Below, piece after piece: positions 39,594 through 46,605 of a stretch of 64,000 nt of DNA. Numbering within the stretch: the first letter of the stretch is position 1; each line of letters opens with the position of its first letter. A program made the translations under genes and the position numbers. The notes beneath the pieces are model-generated. The model was given only the letters and a program-made list of their open reading frames with translations. It ran no database searches and had not been told where the DNA came from. Source of the stretch: Spirulinaceae cyanobacterium SM2_1_0. GTDB taxonomy: Bacteria; Cyanobacteriota; Cyanobacteriia; Cyanobacteriales; Spirulinaceae. The DNA is taken from contig JAAUTY010000019.1 of assembly GCA_012031265.1 (NCBI GenBank), positions 1 through 64,000 on the forward strand, read 5' to 3'.

Positions 39594-41306
39594 TCACTCG
39601 CGACGCCACTGGGCAATGTTCCAAACATTTAGATCCCACGGTGTCAGGTTCACCCCTTGTAAACTTTGGCTCACCCCCGCCGTCTCCGCCCGGTGCACGA
39701 GGGGGATCACGTGAGCACCCGTGATCAGGATTTGGCTCAGCTCCGCTAGTTGCTCACGGCGCTGGTCGGGGTCGAGTTCGCGGAGCGACTGTTGCCAGCG
39801 TTCGTCATAGTCAGGATTGCAATAACGTGAGGGATTGTCGCCCGTCCAGCCATTGGCTTCGGTGGGGATCTGGTCGCAGGTGTAGTTTTGCAGATAAGCG
39901 CCGGGATCGGGACTGGTGTTGCCGGTGGTGTACATTTGCAGGTCAGCGCGAAACCGCTCGACTGTATCGGTATTAGCGGGATCGCCAGAGAAATAGACGC
40001 TGGGGTCGATGCTTTTCAGTTCGACGACTAGGCCTAATTCTGCCAAGTTTTGTTTGATAATTTCCTGAGTCTTTTGGCGGAGCGGGTTGACCGAGGTTTG
40101 GAAGACCAGTTGCATTTCTACACCATCGCGATCGCGGCGGCCATCGCCATTGCTATCCACCCAACCGGCCGCGTCCAGCAATTCTGCGGCCTGCTCCAGA
40201 TCCTGGGCGTAGTCGCCCTCGGTGACGAATTGCGGCGGGGCGACGACAAAACTGGCGGTCGGTTGACCGGTGGCCCCGTAGAGCTGCGAGGCGATCGCCT
40301 CGCGGTCGATGGCGAGAGCGATCGCCTGCCGCACTGGTTCTTCACTGAGGAAAGGATGCGGCGCATCCAGGCGCGAATCCTGAGCCGGATCGCTATGGTT
40401 GATCACGATCCGCTCCATCAGCGAGCCGAAATTGGTGGCCAACTCGCCCTCCCCCGCCGCCACCAGTTCGTCGAGCACACTGGCCTCGACTTGGAGATTG
40501 TAGGCAAAGTCGGCATCACCGGTTTGCAACACGGCGCGCGCCGCTGAGGCCGCATCACCACCCCCTTTGAGCTCGAGGGTCTGAAAACCGAGGTCATCGG
40601 CCTCACGATACTCCGGATTGGCTTCGTAGAGCACGACATCACCGGGTTTGAACTCGGTGACGCGGTAGGGGCCGGTGCCGATCGGCATCAGGTTGGCGGG
40701 GGCTTCGCGTGCTGCCTCGCCCACGTAGTCCGCAAAGGCGTGTTCAGGGAGAATCATGCCCTCGGTGCCGACGAAGACCAGAAACCAAGCGGGCGTCACG
40801 TCGGTGAAATTCACCCGGACGGTATGGTCATCCAGGGCTTCGACACTCGCGATCGCCTCATAAGTCCCAGCACTGGTCGCGCCCGTCGCGGGATCGCTGA
40901 TGAATTCGTGGGTGAAGACGACATCCTCAGCCGTGAAGGGTTCGCCGTCTGACCAAGTAACGCCTTCTTTCAGTTTCCAGGTCACCGAGCGACCATCTTC
41001 AGCCAAGCCGCCATTCTCGAGCGTCGGGATCTCCGCCGCCAGAAAGAGTTGCATCTCGCCCTCGGCGTCGAAGCTAGCTAAAGGTTCGAGGGTGATGCGG
41101 CTGGCTTCGGCATCTTTGAAGCCAGTCGAGAGGTGCGGGTTGAGGATCGTCGGCGCTTGCCAATAGAGCAGGCGTAGGGTGTCGTCGGCGCTGGCGGCCG
41201 GACTACTTTCCGTGGTCTCGGAGGCTGGTTGCGGGTTGCAGGCGGCCAAGACGCCGGACAAGAGTAGGGAGCCGCAGAGGAGAGTGGGGGCGATCGCGCG
41301 TTTCAT
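39594..41306 (-). CDS. Family 5 peptide/nickel-type ABC substrate-binding lipoprotein
   Basis: A 570-residue lipoprotein (lipobox LAAC near residue 22) of the DppA/OppA family: LRLLYWQAPTILNPHLSTGF, WSDGEPFTAEDVVFTHEF, GTGPYRVTEFKPGDVVLYEA and QAIALAIDREAIASQLYGA. It captures peptides or similar solutes in the periplasm. ATG 41306 chosen for the signal peptide. It lies next to a paralogue at 41432-43191 on the same strand; permease and ATPase genes are not adjacent, and the nearest related permease is at 58368. Confidence 0.9.
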   Translation of the reverse strand: MKRAIAPTLLCGSLLLSGVLAACNPQPASETTESSPAASADDTLRLLYWQAPTILNPHLSTGFKDAEASRITLEPLASFDAEGEMQLFLAAEIPTLENGGLAEDGRSVTWKLKEGVTWSDGEPFTAEDVVFTHEFISDPATGATSAGTYEAIASVEALDDHTVRVNFTDVTPAWFLVFVGTEGMILPEHAFADYVGEAAREAPANLMPIGTGPYRVTEFKPGDVVLYEANPEYREADDLGFQTLELKGGGDAASAARAVLQTGDADFAYNLQVEASVLDELVAAGEGELATNFGSLMERIVINHSDPAQDSRLDAPHPFLSEEPVRQAIALAIDREAIASQLYGATGQPTASFVVAPPQFVTEGDYAQDLEQAAELLDAAGWVDSNGDGRRDRDGVEMQLVFQTSVNPLRQKTQEIIKQNLAELGLVVELKSIDPSVYFSGDPANTDTVERFRADLQMYTTGNTSPDPGAYLQNYTCDQIPTEANGWTGDNPSRYCNPDYDERWQQSLRELDPDQRREQLAELSQILITGAHVIPLVHRAETAGVSQSLQGVNLTPWDLNVWNIAQWRRE

Positions 41307-41431
41307 GGGCAAGATTTTGACTGAATTTAGCCAAGGTAAAGATGTCAGCTCGATAGGGTCAAGCAACGGCTGGACAAGCGCAGAGAGGCGCGAGTCAGCG
41401 TCGCACCTCCCTAAATCACCACATCAGACGG

Positions 41432-43191
41432 TTATTCTGCCGCTCGTCGCCAGTTCTTGATGTCCCAGGTATTGGCATCCCAGGGACTGGGTTCTACCCC
41501 TTCGAGGCGATTGCTGACCCCATTGGTATTGGCACGATCCACGATCGGCATCACCGCCACATCTTCCATGAGAAACTCATCCATCTGCTTGAACAGATCA
41601 TTGCGAGTCTCTGGATCGAGTTCGGTCGCCGAGGCTTCCCAGAGCGCATCATACTCCGGGTTGCAGTAGCGAGCGTTGTTTTCGAGTTGCCAGTCGTTTT
41701 CCATCTGGGCGATCTGGTCACAAGTCCACCACTTCATGTAGGGGCCGGGATCGGGGCTGTCGTTGCCGGTGTTGTACTCCTGCATATCGGCGTAGAAGTG
41801 GTTGATCGTATCGGTATTCGCCGGGTCGCCGGAGAAGAAGATGCCCGCATCAATGCTCTTAAGTTCAACACCAACGCCGATCGACTCCAGCGATTGCTTG
41901 ACGATTTCCTGAGTCTTCTGGCGGACGGGATTGACCGAGGTTTGGAAGACGACATTCATCTCCACGCCATCCTGGTCACGCACGCCGTCGTCGTTGGTAT
42001 CTTCCCAACCGGCTTCGTCGAGCAGGGCTTCGGCTTGTTCGAGGTTGTACTCGTAGCTGATGTTGTCGCTGGCGATCGCCCCCGGTGAAACCAGCAGTTG
42101 ACCCGTGGCGCGGCCGGTGGGGCCGTAGAGTTGCTCGGCGATCGCGTCGCGATCGATGGCGAGGGTAAAGGCCTGTCGCACGCGCTTGTCGGTAAAGAAG
42201 GGGTGGGGATTTTCCAAACTTGACCGCTCGCCATCAGCCGTTTCAGCATTCGGGTCGGTGAAGTTGAACATGATCCGCTCAACGTAGGGGCCGAACACGG
42301 CCGAGACCCGACCTTGACCGGCCGCTTCGAGTTCTTCGAGAATGTTGGCTTCAACTTGCAGGTTGTAGGCATAGTCCGCATCGCCGGTTTGCAAGACCGC
42401 CCGCGCGGCAGAGGTCGCATCGCCACCGCCCTTGACTTCAACGCGGTTAAACGGCGGCGCGCCGTCCCAGTAGTCGGCGTTGGCTTCCAGCACTACGAGG
42501 TCGCCGGGTTTGAATTCCACAACTTGGTAAGGGCCAGTCCCGACGGGCATTTGGTTCGCTGGCGCTTCGCGAGCATTCGCGCCATTGAATTCGGCAAAGA
42601 TGTGCTCCGGCAGGATCATGCCATTCTGACCGGTGAATGGAACTTCCCAGCCCGGCGTGACATCTTTGAAATTCACTTGAACTGTGTAGTCGTCGATCGC
42701 TTCGACACTTTCAACGGTTTCATAGTTGGCAGTGGAAGCAGCCGCTACATCCGGGTTTGACAAATACTCGTAAGTAAAGACGACATCCTCAGCGGTGAAG
42801 GGTTCGCCGTCGGCCCAGGTGACATCTTCCTTCAGTTTCCAAGTCACCGAGCGGCCGTCTTCAGCGACGCCGCCATTCTCGCGGCTCGGCGCTTCCGCAG
42901 CGAGAAAGAGCACAAATTCGCCATTCTCGTCCTTGCTTGCCAGCGGTTCGTAGACGATACGGGCGGCGTCGAAGTCTTTGAAGCCCGTGGCTAAGTGAGG
43001 ATTGAGAATCGTCGGTGCTTGCCAATAGAGCAGGCGCAGGACATCGTCGTCAGCCGCCGCACTCTCATCAGCCGGTGCGGTCTCTTCAGTGGATTCTGTG
43101 GGAGTCTCGGCTGGGGGTTACAGGCGGCGATCGCCAATGTCCCCACGAGTGACAACAAGACGAGGGGTAGAAAAAAGCGACGGAGATTCAT
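41432..43191 (-). pseudogene. Second family 5 peptide-binding lipoprotein, frameshifted in the leader region
   Basis: Close paralogue of the downstream gene. The signal peptide and lipobox (AIAACNPQ) are in one frame from ATG 43191; the rest (LFLAAEAPSRENGG, WADGEPFTAEDVVFTYEY, GTGPYQVVEFKPGDLVVLEA) is in another, beginning openly near 43110. One missing base at the five-G run 43113-43117 explains it: with it the protein is 586 residues and continuous through LLYWQAPTILNPHL. As written the main frame begins only at 42913. Probably intact in the living organism. Confidence 0.8.
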
Positions 43192-43318
43192 TTTCTTCAA
43201 GTTCGCGAGCCTCTGTGAGTTCTAGGTGTCTCTCAAATTGATCGCCACATTGTAGAGAAAAGCGCGAACTTGAAGTGCTAAAACGACAACAAAATTTACG
43301 CGACCTAGCCATCGCCGG

Positions 43319-43935
43319 TTAAAACTTCGCAGCAGTCTGGGCTTCGAGATCGAACTTGAAGCGGCGCGGGTAGTTAGTCTGGCCGTAGAGATTGAAGGAA
43401 ATCGTCGGCGATCGCCCAGTGCCTGCACGCGATGGATGGTCTCGGGGAGAAAGGTCATGATGTCACCCGGCTTCAGCACACACTCGGCCGTCGCGGTCAG
43501 GCGGTCAGGGTGCTCCGCATCACCCGCCCGCCGCCAAAAGTTGTTGCGCTCCTCACCATCCAGCATCGCCACCAAGCCCCAAGTCGCGTGGTTATGAACG
43601 AGCGACTGCCGACCGGCAGCCCAGGCGACCATCTGCACGGTCGGGATGTAACCGGGTTCGTCGTAGAGCATCGTCACCGACCACCCCTTCTTGGCATCAG
43701 GCGGCACACCCGCGAGCTGAATCCAACTCGAATCCGCCAGCAAGCGGCGCACCAGTGGGCAGATGAGTAGTAGACGCTCACGGTCGTCGGGCACGCTGTC
43801 GAGGATGTCTTCCAGATCGGTCAGGAAGCGATAGAGGCGGTAGGGTTCTTTAAGGTCAAGTAATTCACAATCCTCTACGGGCAGCGGCTCACAAATTCCC
43901 GCCTCCGTTGCGAGTAAGGTCTGACCAGTCTGCAA
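43319..43935 (-). pseudogene. Cysteine dioxygenase-like cupin, frameshifted near its end
   Basis: A cupin with the iron-binding HNHATWG motif at about residue 118 and DGEERNNFW, then CVLKPGDIMTFLPETIHRV, a pattern of cysteine/thiol dioxygenases. After ALGD the printed frame is wrong; one base missing near 43406-43410 gives PTISFNLYGQTNYPRRFKF and a natural end at 43319, total 205 residues. The printed frame runs on to 43222. Substrate is probably a thiol, but this is family inference. Confidence 0.75.
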
Positions 43936-43974: not shown

Positions 43975-44466
43975 TCAGTTGACGACCACTGGGTAATCCG
44001 GGGTGGGATTCAGCGGACAACTGAAGACGTAGCTCCCTGGCTTGAGCGTGATCTCATATTCTTGGGTTGTTCCCTCGGTCAGACCGCCGCCGCTGACTTT
44101 GGGCAGCGTCGCGGTGCTGGCACCCGCGCCCCGGAGATAGAAGCCGAGTTCATAGGGCACATCAGTATTGGTGACGCGAAAAGTGTAGGTTCCCGCCGCG
44201 AGTTCCAGCGGCTCAAACTCAGCCTCACGCTCGGCGAGGGTGTCCGCGTTGATCTGTTCGCAATCTTCGGCGCTAGTGGGTGCGTAGCCGCGATCGCCAC
44301 TCTCCGTCTCGAGAAACTGGCAGCCGGTCTGTGTCAGTTCGATGATCTGAGGCGCGGCGTCGGCATTGCCATCAGCGGGCGGCTGGGCTTGGCAGCTCAA
44401 CAGCAAGCCCGTGGTCAGTAGGAGACTTCCGAACGGGAGCATCTTGCGGGGTTGAATCAGCATCAC
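43975..44466 (-). CDS. Cupredoxin-like lipoprotein
   Basis: A 163-residue lipoprotein (lipobox LLSC near residue 25). The C-terminal half has a beta-sandwich cupredoxin look: LAAGTYTFRVTNTDVPYELG, then GTTQEYEITLKPGSYVFSCP, where the Cys of the final loop corresponds to the copper ligand position. The usual ligand His in that loop (C-x-H) is replaced by Pro-Leu-Asn-Pro, so copper binding is uncertain. Two more cysteines (GCQF, DCEQ) may form a disulfide. Confidence 0.65.
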   Translation of the reverse strand: MMLIQPRKMLPFGSLLLTTGLLLSCQAQPPADGNADAAPQIIELTQTGCQFLETESGDRGYAPTSAEDCEQINADTLAEREAEFEPLELAAGTYTFRVTNTDVPYELGFYLRGAGASTATLPKVSGGGLTEGTTQEYEITLKPGSYVFSCPLNPTPDYPVVVN

Positions 44467-44872
44467 TCAAAAAACTCTAGATAACGATGGAGGCAAACAA
44501 TTCAGCGAACGACTGTCGTGTACATCGCTGCTTAATTCTAGGGTTATCAAATAACATCAAGTTGAGTTTATACACAGACCCAGCTTAGAAAAAAAATATT
44601 TATTTCTCAGGACATTTTCAGAAAAATATAGCTAGACTAAGGCGCAACGAGGATGCGTCGCTTTTCGGGATGATCACGATCCGAATGCTGGCGTCAGCCG
44701 TTGGCAAATGGGTGGTGATCGCCGAATTGGCTCAGAACGTGTCAGTCAAGTCTCTCAGGCAATTCTCAGCCTAGCTTTGCAGACTACCGCTATCCTCCTG
44801 AGAGGAATCGTTCTTGCGGTTTGACTTGCTTTCCTAGGCGTTGAGTTCATTTATTTTTTTAGGAGAAACACG
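44467..44872. other. A/T-rich intergenic region before the EDPCAA lipoprotein
   Basis: About 406 bases between divergent genes. The part at 44560-44640 is markedly A/T-rich (runs of A and TATTTATT) compared with the rest of the window and is the likely promoter region. A TTAGGAGA ribosome site lies at 44860-44867. No gene is seen. Confidence 0.4.
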
Positions 44873-45256
44873 GTGAAAGTTCGTTACTTAACCACTTTAG
44901 CAACGGTAACCCTGCTGAGTTTGGGGATTGCGGCGGGTTGTGCCAACCCGGGTGCCCAGGATGCCGAGACCAGCACCCCAACTGAAGAGACTGATGCCGC
45001 TGAAGATCCTTGTGCCGCCGCTGAAGATCCTTGCGCGGCGGGTGAGGATCCCTGCGCCGCGGCTGAAGATCCTTGTGCAGCAGCCGAGGATCCCTGCGCC
45101 GCGGCTGAAGATCCTTGCGCGGCGGGTGAGGATCCCTGCGCGGCGGGTGAGGATCCCTGCGCCGCGGCTGAAGATCCTTGCGCGGCAGCCGAGGATCCCT
45201 GTGCTGCGAAGGATGAGGCAGGTACTTCGCAGGACGATCCCTGTGCCGGTAGCTAA
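44873..45256 (+). CDS. Cysteine-rich tandem-repeat lipoprotein (EDPCAA heptads)
   Basis: A 127-residue protein starting at GTG 44873. A lipoprotein signal ends in AAGC (about residue 23), followed by an acidic Thr/Glu linker and ten consecutive heptads of the form (A/G)EDPCAA encoded at 44999-45208, then a degenerate DDPCAGS end. Every heptad has one Cys and two acidic residues, so eleven regularly spaced thiols project from the outer surface. I do not recognise the family. Metal binding or disulfide cross-linking in the envelope is a plausible role. A strong terminator follows. Confidence 0.8.
   Translation: MKVRYLTTLATVTLLSLGIAAGCANPGAQDAETSTPTEETDAAEDPCAAAEDPCAAGEDPCAAAEDPCAAAEDPCAAAEDPCAAGEDPCAAGEDPCAAAEDPCAAAEDPCAAKDEAGTSQDDPCAGS
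44999..45208 (+). repeat. Ten tandem 21-bp coding repeats
   Basis: Ten in-frame copies of a 21-bp unit, each containing GAAGATCCTTG or GAGGATCCCTG. The copies differ mainly at silent third positions, and GCT/GCC alternates with GGT at the first codon. Some pairs are identical, so recent duplication or unequal exchange is likely and copy number may vary between strains. Confidence 0.9.
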
Positions 45257-45298
45257 GCGCGTCGCGGTGAATGGCTAATCGGCCAGCCGCTTGGCTTG

Positions 45299-45332
45299 AC
45301 GAGCACGTCCGTTCTGGGCGTGCTCGTTTGTT
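45299..45332 (+). terminator. Rho-independent terminator
   Basis: A 9-bp stem ACGAGCACG (45299-45307) with CGTGCTCGT (45319-45327), an 11-base loop and a T-rich tail (TTTGTT). It is 43 bases after the EDPCAA gene. Confidence 0.75.
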
Positions 45333-45441
45333 GTGGCTGCGGACTTAGGTGATGCTTGGCGATCGCCAGCCAGATGACAGCCTTAACCCCGACGCCCCCT
45401 GTAGAATAAGCCTTGACTTTTACCCTCAGTTTCCCCACAAG

Positions 45442-46605
45442 ATGTACAACCTGAAAGCAATCGTCGTTGGCGCGGGCATCGGCGGTCTCACCACGGGCAT
45501 TGCCCTGCGGCGCGCGGGCTACGCGGTTGAGGTTTATGAAAAGACGCGCGAACTGCGACCGGCCGGAGCCGGTATTTCCCTGTGGTCAAATGGGGTGAAG
45601 GTGCTGAATGCCCTGGGACTGGGCGATCGCCTCGCCGCGATCGGCGGTCAGATGAACGCCATGACCTACCGCAGTCACACCGATGAACTGCTCAGCGAGA
45701 TTTCCCTCCAGCCGCTGATCGCCACCGTCGGTCAGCGTCCCTATCCTGTGGCGCGCACTGATTTGCAGGTGCTGCTCTTGACCGCGTTTGGCGAAGCCGA
45801 TGTGCATTTGGGGAAACATTGTGTCGCTGTGGAGCAAACTGCCGACAGTGCCACCGCCATCTTTGCCGATGGCAGCTGCGCCACGGGCGATCTACTGATC
45901 GGTGCCGACGGCGTCCGCTCGACCGTGCGCCAATATCTGCTCGGTCGCGAGCAAGCGCCGCGCTATGCAGGCTATGTCAATTGGAATGGTCTCGTCCCTG
46001 CCAGTCCTGACTTGGCTCCCGCAGATGTCTGGGTGATCTATGTCGGTGAGGGCAAGCGGGCATCCATGATGCCGGTGGGGGGCGATCGCTTCTACTTTTT
46101 CTTTGGCAGCCCGATGTCCGCTGGCACCACGGTCGAACCGGCCCAGCGCCGCGACGAACTCGCCCAACAGTTTGCCGGCTGGCCCCAGCCCGTGCAGCGC
46201 TTGATTGAACGTCTGAACCCGCTGCAAACCAACCGCCTGGAAATCTCCGATCTGGAGCCACTGGAGCACTTGGTCAACGGCCGCATTGCGCTGCTGGGGG
46301 ATGCCGGTCATGCGACCACCCCGACCCTCGGACAGGGCGGCTGTCAGGCGATCGAAGATGCGGAGGTGCTGTGGCGATCGCTCGTCACCACCAATATCAG
46401 CGTCGCCGATGCCCTGCAACGCTACGAGCAGGCGCGCAAAGAACGCACCGCCAATCTGGTGCTCAAAGCCCGCAAGCGCACGGCGACCATCTACGGCAAA
46501 GACCCCGACCAGACACAAGCCTGGTATGACCAGCTCAAAGTGGAGTCCCCCAGTGATGTCACTGATGCGCTGGCGAAGGTGATTCTAGCGGGGCCTTATG
46601 GCTGA
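45442..46605 (+). CDS. FAD-dependent monooxygenase, urate hydroxylase-like
   Basis: A 387-residue flavoprotein. It has the dinucleotide motif VVGAGIGGLTTGIALRRAG at about 8-26, the LLIGADGVRSTVRQ motif, and LLGDAGHATTPTLGQGG near residue 290. The class A aromatic hydroxylase fold and short length fit HpxO-type urate hydroxylase or a salicylate hydroxylase-like enzyme; the substrate cannot be fixed from sequence. Start ATG 45442 (MYNLKAIVV); a longer frame from 45349 adds 31 unlikely residues. Confidence 0.85.
   Translation: MYNLKAIVVGAGIGGLTTGIALRRAGYAVEVYEKTRELRPAGAGISLWSNGVKVLNALGLGDRLAAIGGQMNAMTYRSHTDELLSEISLQPLIATVGQRPYPVARTDLQVLLLTAFGEADVHLGKHCVAVEQTADSATAIFADGSCATGDLLIGADGVRSTVRQYLLGREQAPRYAGYVNWNGLVPASPDLAPADVWVIYVGEGKRASMMPVGGDRFYFFFGSPMSAGTTVEPAQRRDELAQQFAGWPQPVQRLIERLNPLQTNRLEISDLEPLEHLVNGRIALLGDAGHATTPTLGQGGCQAIEDAEVLWRSLVTTNISVADALQRYEQARKERTANLVLKARKRTATIYGKDPDQTQAWYDQLKVESPSDVTDALAKVILAGPYG

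Follow-up and report, generated by a model that had tools for sequence, protein, structure and literature searches.

A cyanobacterial family of predicted envelope proteins with arrays of single cysteines, its linked thiol-dioxygenase-type cupin and a tandem operator

Among the described systems that come close to the locus studied here are the bufferins and the EGKCG/oxazolin (HvfA-type) copper-binding RiPPs, exported cysteine-repeat proteins for which a role in metal buffering has been proposed (PMC12452194). The locus lies in a stretch of 64,000 nucleotides (the window) on contig C101 of a 5.03-Mb cyanobacterial draft genome that is 99.98% complete, and it encodes an array protein which recalls these systems in its exported cysteine repeats, in that some members are predicted lipoproteins, and in the DoxX-like genes found in both contexts. 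Those proteins need an MNIO enzyme (PF05114); the array carries the motif PCA[GAS]K and not EGKCG, and its partners (a thiol dioxygenase, a two-component system, thioredoxin and YHS domains) differ from the bufferin setting. The Buf1, Buf2 and EGKCG precursor families of Pfam and NCBIfam gave no match to the array, whose unit reads EDPCAA or NPCAGK; the window genome contains no match to PF05114, on which ground a bufferin/MNIO identity was rejected, and the MNIO of 14 of 59 relatives has no evident link to the arrays.

The bacterial metallothioneins (SmtA/BmtA, MymT) are likewise thiol-rich and small, but they are cytosolic and built on CxC/CxxC, whereas the array is predicted to be exported and anchored, with one cysteine per 5–8 residues and almost no histidine. 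Neither CxC nor CxxC occurs in the arrays, and a classical metallothionein was discarded because of the spacing of 5–8 residues or more, the predicted signal peptide, and the lack of any Pfam match. The TlpA/ResA-like thioredoxin lipoproteins associated with CcdA resemble the thioredoxin-fused relatives of the array, which also have WCxxC and CcdA neighbours but add a PCAxK array, and the YHS (seleno)proteins of NF041384 resemble the YHS-fused relatives, which add an N-terminal array; the window protein has neither a thioredoxin nor a YHS domain. With CopMRS/CopBAC, the copper regulon of Synechocystis PCC 6803, the array family has in common an OmpR-type regulator, half-sites of the TTCAT kind and an extracytoplasmic sensor kinase (PMC4182526), but it differs in half-site spacing, in target genes and in having no RND exporter. 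Finally, the partner cupin shares with 3-mercaptopropionate and mercaptosuccinate dioxygenases a 3-His iron site and overall homology, but reads SxNxY for SxHxY and is divergent from the array gene.

The array gene and its family

The features of the locus, in window coordinates, are:

43222–43935, minus strand: thiol-dioxygenase-type cupin by homology, its frame broken near 43405–43410; the C-terminus goes on in another frame to 43319
43975–44466, minus strand: cupredoxin-like lipoprotein, divergent, a conserved partner of stand-alone arrays (Pfam, alignment, locus counts)
44605–44621, plus strand: distal candidate operator TCTCAGGACATTTTCAG, two half-sites, 11-bp period (pattern search)
44753–44769, plus strand: proximal candidate operator TCTCAGGCAATTCTCAG, two half-sites, 11-bp period (pattern search)
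44861–44866, plus strand: AGGAGA ribosome-binding site, 6 nt before the GTG (sequence)
44873–45256, plus strand: cysteine-repeat lipoprotein gene, GTG start, 127 aa (ORF call, homologs)
44873–44941, plus strand: predicted signal peptide and lipobox (MKVRYLTTLATVTLLSLGIAAG followed by C23), from the sequence, the N-terminus being conserved family-wide in alignment
44999–45208, plus strand: ten 21-nt units encoding (A/G)EDPCAA (TRF, unit comparison)
45236–45253, plus strand: terminal DPCAGS, the eleventh array cysteine (sequence, unit comparison)
45298–45328, plus strand: post-stop hairpin with a T-rich tail, a possible terminator (folding calculation)

The first-pass annotation had described a lipid-anchored protein of ten EDPCAA heptads, and the ORF list and TRF agree with it exactly: the frame runs from 44873 to 45256, the repeat from 44999 to 45208 has a 21-nt period, 10.0 copies and a score of 231, forming part of the strongest array of the window, and all ten units are perfect (A/G)EDPCAA, separated from the lipobox by a short linker and followed at the C-terminus by an eleventh DPCA. 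The lipobox, IAAGC23, predicts a lipoprotein; the single-sequence AlphaFold model is of low confidence (pLDDT 56). No Pfam or NCBIfam family matches the protein, as that annotation had supposed in finding no name for the repeat. Its view that silent variation reflects selection on the protein is upheld by the comparison of the ten units, where synonymous changes make up 143 of the 164 pairwise differences (pS = 0.64, pN = 0.03), and thus the array has existed long enough for silent changes to accumulate under constraint on the peptide. The acidic residues said to flank each cysteine are present on one side, E and D standing two to three positions before it, whereas on the other side the neighbour is alanine. 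A sigma-70 scan gave no promoter match upstream of the gene; beyond the stop codon, the segment 45285–45345 folds at −34 kcal/mol (z −4.7), and the hairpin within it was not listed by a consensus terminator scan. Directly downstream (45349–46605, plus strand) lies an FAD-dependent monooxygenase gene whose product scores 598 bits against the NCBIfam model of the urate hydroxylase HpxO, for which the cut-off is 500.

Homologs, whose absence from related genomes had been named as a refuting result, proved abundant, with array matches in 107 of the 391 genomes of the order, although these genomes are related, so that the counts are not independent events, and the profiles used (A2, A3) were built from the loci found first. 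Full-length relatives begin with a common N-terminus, MKVRYLTTLA..LSLGLAVGCANPCA, and continue with [N/D]PCA[G/A/S]K units; the window protein belongs with them, having the conserved N-terminus and at least three [ND]PCA[GAS] units. The consensus unit is [N/D]-P-C-A-[G/A/S]-K/x, usually with a lysine and at a spacing of 5–8 residues. Across 97 distinct array proteins, 661 cysteines stand in PC[AGS] and 6 others occur inside the arrays, which are nearly free of histidine (2) and methionine (1); spacing of 7 is the most frequent, then 6, 5 and 8, with extremes of 5 and about 14. The arrays have between 3 and 16 repeats, and their number of cysteines is neither fixed nor even. From these counts, what is conserved is a single thiol in a Pro-Cys-Ala context and not a heptad or acidity, which are seen in the window as described but are local details; in its residues the array presents itself as a chain of thiols alone, variably spaced.

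The relatives fall into three architectures, in which the array stands alone, precedes a thioredoxin-like domain with WCxxC (lying between this and the signal peptide), or forms the N-terminal PCAGK part of a YHS protein of the NF041384 (seleno)protein type (155 vs a cut-off of 70 bits). The lipobox pattern was found in 40 of 47 stand-alone, 20 of 31 thioredoxin and none of 19 YHS forms. Searches of the literature by repeat motif and by PCC 7002 locus tags found nothing on the array family, which is undescribed and named by no annotation, while being widespread and sometimes plasmid-borne in cyanobacteria.

Among other matches, those judged spurious were weak repeat matches (such as L015, L016, L024 and L029), which are translations of low-complexity or heptanucleotide repeats; those on Borrelia plasmids (E 3e-4 or weaker), which are artefacts of composition; and one to the LpqS copper lipoprotein (E 0.018, below cut-off), probably due to shared low-complexity composition. 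A separate set of small lipoproteins (L021 1501–1683 in G003, L022, L017) has the same signal peptide and repeat tails that are acidic or poor in cysteine (e.g., DEEPMEEGEAMEEGE); conservation is higher in the signal region than in the tail.

Linked genes and the tandem operator

The first-pass annotation had mentioned neither the cupin nearby, nor the fusions to thioredoxin and YHS domains, nor the common operator. In 98 loci, the array was found stand-alone in 45, with thioredoxin in 24, with YHS in 14, with both in 4, and as YHS plus stand-alone in 1, while the remaining 10 held no array passing the filter. CcdA/DsbD_TM is encoded in 26 loci (18 thioredoxin, 4 thioredoxin plus YHS, 2 YHS, 2 without a passing array) and in none of the 45 stand-alone ones; 10 loci, all of the thioredoxin type, also encode a TrxB-like reductase, and the complete chain of TrxB, CcdA and thioredoxin occurs in L037 and L042 as well as on a Pseudanabaena plasmid.

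The cupin is present in 75 of the 98 loci and in all architectures, and lies within 5.5 kb of the array in 74 of the 107 array-bearing genomes, a count made with a cupin set that omitted weaker matches near 1e-80, mostly of family f33; 72 of 78 such places are divergent. Owing to that omission, the distances are relied on here but the Fisher value calculated with them is disregarded. Its best solved relatives are 3-mercaptopropionate dioxygenase (3uss, E 1.7e-17), mercaptosuccinate dioxygenase (4e-15) and cysteine dioxygenases, and the three iron-ligand histidines are aligned (HNH and a third His). The Ser-His-Tyr motif is absent: in all intact members aligned, SxHxY reads SxNxY (SFNLYG), with His replaced by Asn. 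In the window copy a frameshift precedes this position, near the 3′ end of the gene and inside gcgatcgccgacg; its relatives are intact, and either an assembly error or real decay may be the cause. A second, intact cupin of the thiol-dioxygenase type, of another subgroup and not beside an array, is encoded elsewhere in the window genome (G000 C109:2569–3174). Adjoining the dioxygenase locus, at 39594–42913 on the minus strand, are two tandem family-5 solute-binding proteins of the peptide type.

A sensor kinase is encoded in 39 of the 98 loci, always with the cupin, the two being same-strand neighbours in 35. Its extracytoplasmic domain has one invariant cysteine in 34 of 34 sequences, kept also in the ortholog that the window genome encodes on another contig (C19; 44% identity), and among NCBIfam subfamilies the kinase comes nearest to the heavy-metal kinases cztS/silS/copS, scoring under the curated cut-off. 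The cupredoxin-like lipoprotein gene that had been reported as adjoining and divergent is at 43975–44466 on the minus strand and recurs in 12 of the 98 loci, 11 of them with a stand-alone array (11 of the 45 such loci). Its product matches Cupredoxin_1 of Pfam below cut-off (E 0.034), has one conserved C-terminal cysteine and no invariant histidine, and gave a single-sequence model of pLDDT 50.

A direct repeat of TCA(G/T) with an 11-bp period, YTCAK-N6-YTCAK, is present in 51 of 86 non-redundant array promoters, against 4.7 ± 2.2 in dinucleotide shuffles and 3 and 2 at periods of 10 and 12; since the pattern was picked once k-mers had been explored in an overlapping promoter set, this first comparison does not count as independent. 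Evidence that does comes from control tiles, where the operator is not enriched (11/319 vs 12.9), and from the strict pattern, of which the taxonomic family of the window has 67 sites and the window genome 6, where the reversed pattern has 26 and 0, respectively. The promoters of the linked dioxygenases score in 23 of 27 cases, partly re-using the same intergenic DNA as the array promoters. The half-site resembles the TTCAT of CopR, the copper regulator of Synechocystis, for which TTCATN4-5TTCAT has been reported (PMC4182526); the period here is 11, and a period of 10 is not enriched.

Beyond the arrays, the operator precedes arsS in six genomes of the window's family, two of them with a relaxed site; the target in the window genome matches TIGR04167 above cut-off, and the link was seen only in this family, ArsS as such being found almost throughout the order. 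Other targets are a DUF547 lipoprotein gene in four genomes (G000 C25 (L309), G006, G008, G010), the unlinked thiol dioxygenase of G006, a DoxX-like gene and a GST under one operator, a single SOD and a single peroxiredoxin; no metal-efflux gene was seen among the recurrent neighbours or the operator targets. A triple half-site, i.e., two overlapping operators, stands before the gene of a protein of ~460 aa with an N-terminal hydrophobic segment in G006 C213 (L320) and G010 C108 (L337). An ArsN1-like N-acetyltransferase gene, below cut-off, follows the operator in G006 C330 (L323) and G010 C17 (L342), with, in G006, a CDO_I-like cupin after it and a glutathione-synthetase-like ATP-grasp gene before it.

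What the arrays may do

The best reading of the family, to which we would give not quite an even chance, is that of a reducible polythiol of the envelope that buffers thiophilic metals and metalloids. The array protein would be a membrane-anchored, extracytoplasmic and probably unfolded chain of single cysteines, whose gene, under the OmpR-type operator of 11-bp period, is usually divergent from a cupin that often shares a putative operon with the two-component system. Thiol-reactive metal(loid)s (Cu(I), As(III), Hg, Cd) arriving at the envelope would be sensed by the kinase, and the array would be induced, presumably through binding of the linked regulator to the operator; the thiolates would then bind the ions, and the proteins of the envelope and the thylakoid lumen would be spared their attack. 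In some species, fused thioredoxin domains fed by CcdA would keep the arrays reduced, and in others the YHS fusions and the cupredoxin-like lipoprotein may be pointers to metal handling, while the cytoplasmic dioxygenase could dispose of small thiols or thiol adducts within the same response. An inducible metal(loid)-binding polythiol is suggested because the recurrent parts handle thiols (array, dioxygenase, thioredoxin/CcdA, kinase with its sensor cysteine) or plausibly metals (YHS, the cupredoxin-like protein, the CopR-like half-site and arsS). Against this stand the absence of a metal-efflux gene, the kinase match below cut-off, an operator spacing unlike that of CopR, a dioxygenase that is not obviously a metal gene, and an arsS link found only in the family of the window; moreover, the thioredoxin/CcdA partners and the targets SOD and peroxiredoxin would be just as expected of a redox role.

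Such a role is the main rival, less probable but with a substantial share of the likelihood: the arrays would serve the periplasm or the thylakoid lumen as a reversible thiol/disulfide store, which takes up oxidising equivalents from peroxide, hypohalous acids or disulfide stress and is re-reduced by CcdA-supplied thioredoxin-like domains. The frequency of thioredoxin fusion (24–28 of 98 loci), of CcdA and of TrxB-like reductases, the loci with the full chain, the DoxX-like gene and GST sharing one operator, and the possible sensor cysteine of the kinase all agree with it, but the stand-alone forms, the commonest ones, are never near CcdA, the YHS fusion and the cupredoxin-like partner point to metals, and the number of cysteines is neither fixed nor even. 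The two buffering roles are not exclusive. It is improbable, though worth stating, that we are dealing with one regulated envelope circuit, in which the two-component system, the SNY-type dioxygenase and exchangeable arrays (alone, thioredoxin-fused or YHS-fused) would both sense and control the state of the periplasm or lumen with respect to thiols or oxygen; the dioxygenase would have as its substrate either the arrays or their small-thiol partner. A direct action of the linked enzyme, oxidising array cysteines to sulfinates in an oxygen-dependent modification as ADO does, seems scarcely probable. ADO acts on N-terminal cysteines, whereas those of the array are internal; a signal peptide is lacking from the cupin but predicted for the array, and related enzymes use small thiols. 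In its favour are the highly consistent divergent pairing across all architectures and the SNY motif. In a bacterial MDO, the substitution H157N lowers kcat ~20-fold and raises the KM for oxygen (PMC10966181), and the raised KM could suit an oxygen-responsive enzyme. Very unlikely too is a structural or incidental origin, in which the array would be a lipoprotein of low complexity, cross-linking the envelope through disulfides and drifting neutrally in repeat number: the wide range of repeat numbers and spacings and the low-confidence fold prediction, made from a single sequence, would be compatible with this, but it fits poorly with the strong purifying selection on the unit, the dedicated partners and conserved operator, and the recurrent fusion to catalytic domains.

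Should the arrays of the preferred metal(loid)-buffering reading bind copper or arsenic, oxygenic phototrophs would own an envelope polythiol buffer without the MNIO enzymes of the bufferin type. The operator and its linked genes offer a direct way to test, in a model strain, which signal induces the arrays.

Copies on plasmids

Homologous modules occur on plasmids of Picosynechococcus PCC 7002 (pAQ7), [Synechococcus] NIES-970, Leptolyngbya BL0902 and Pseudanabaena galeata CCNP1313, the last adjoining Tn3 and IS elements; a constructed query of a Sec signal followed by NPCAAK gave no match to plasmids. On pAQ7, the gene table omits the array gene (L133 13279–13586; record 183278–183585) and has instead an opposite-strand hypothetical protein, RS16885, over the array ORF. 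A few kb from this module, at L133 5804–8112, are egtD and egtB, of ergothioneine biosynthesis and so also thiol-related.
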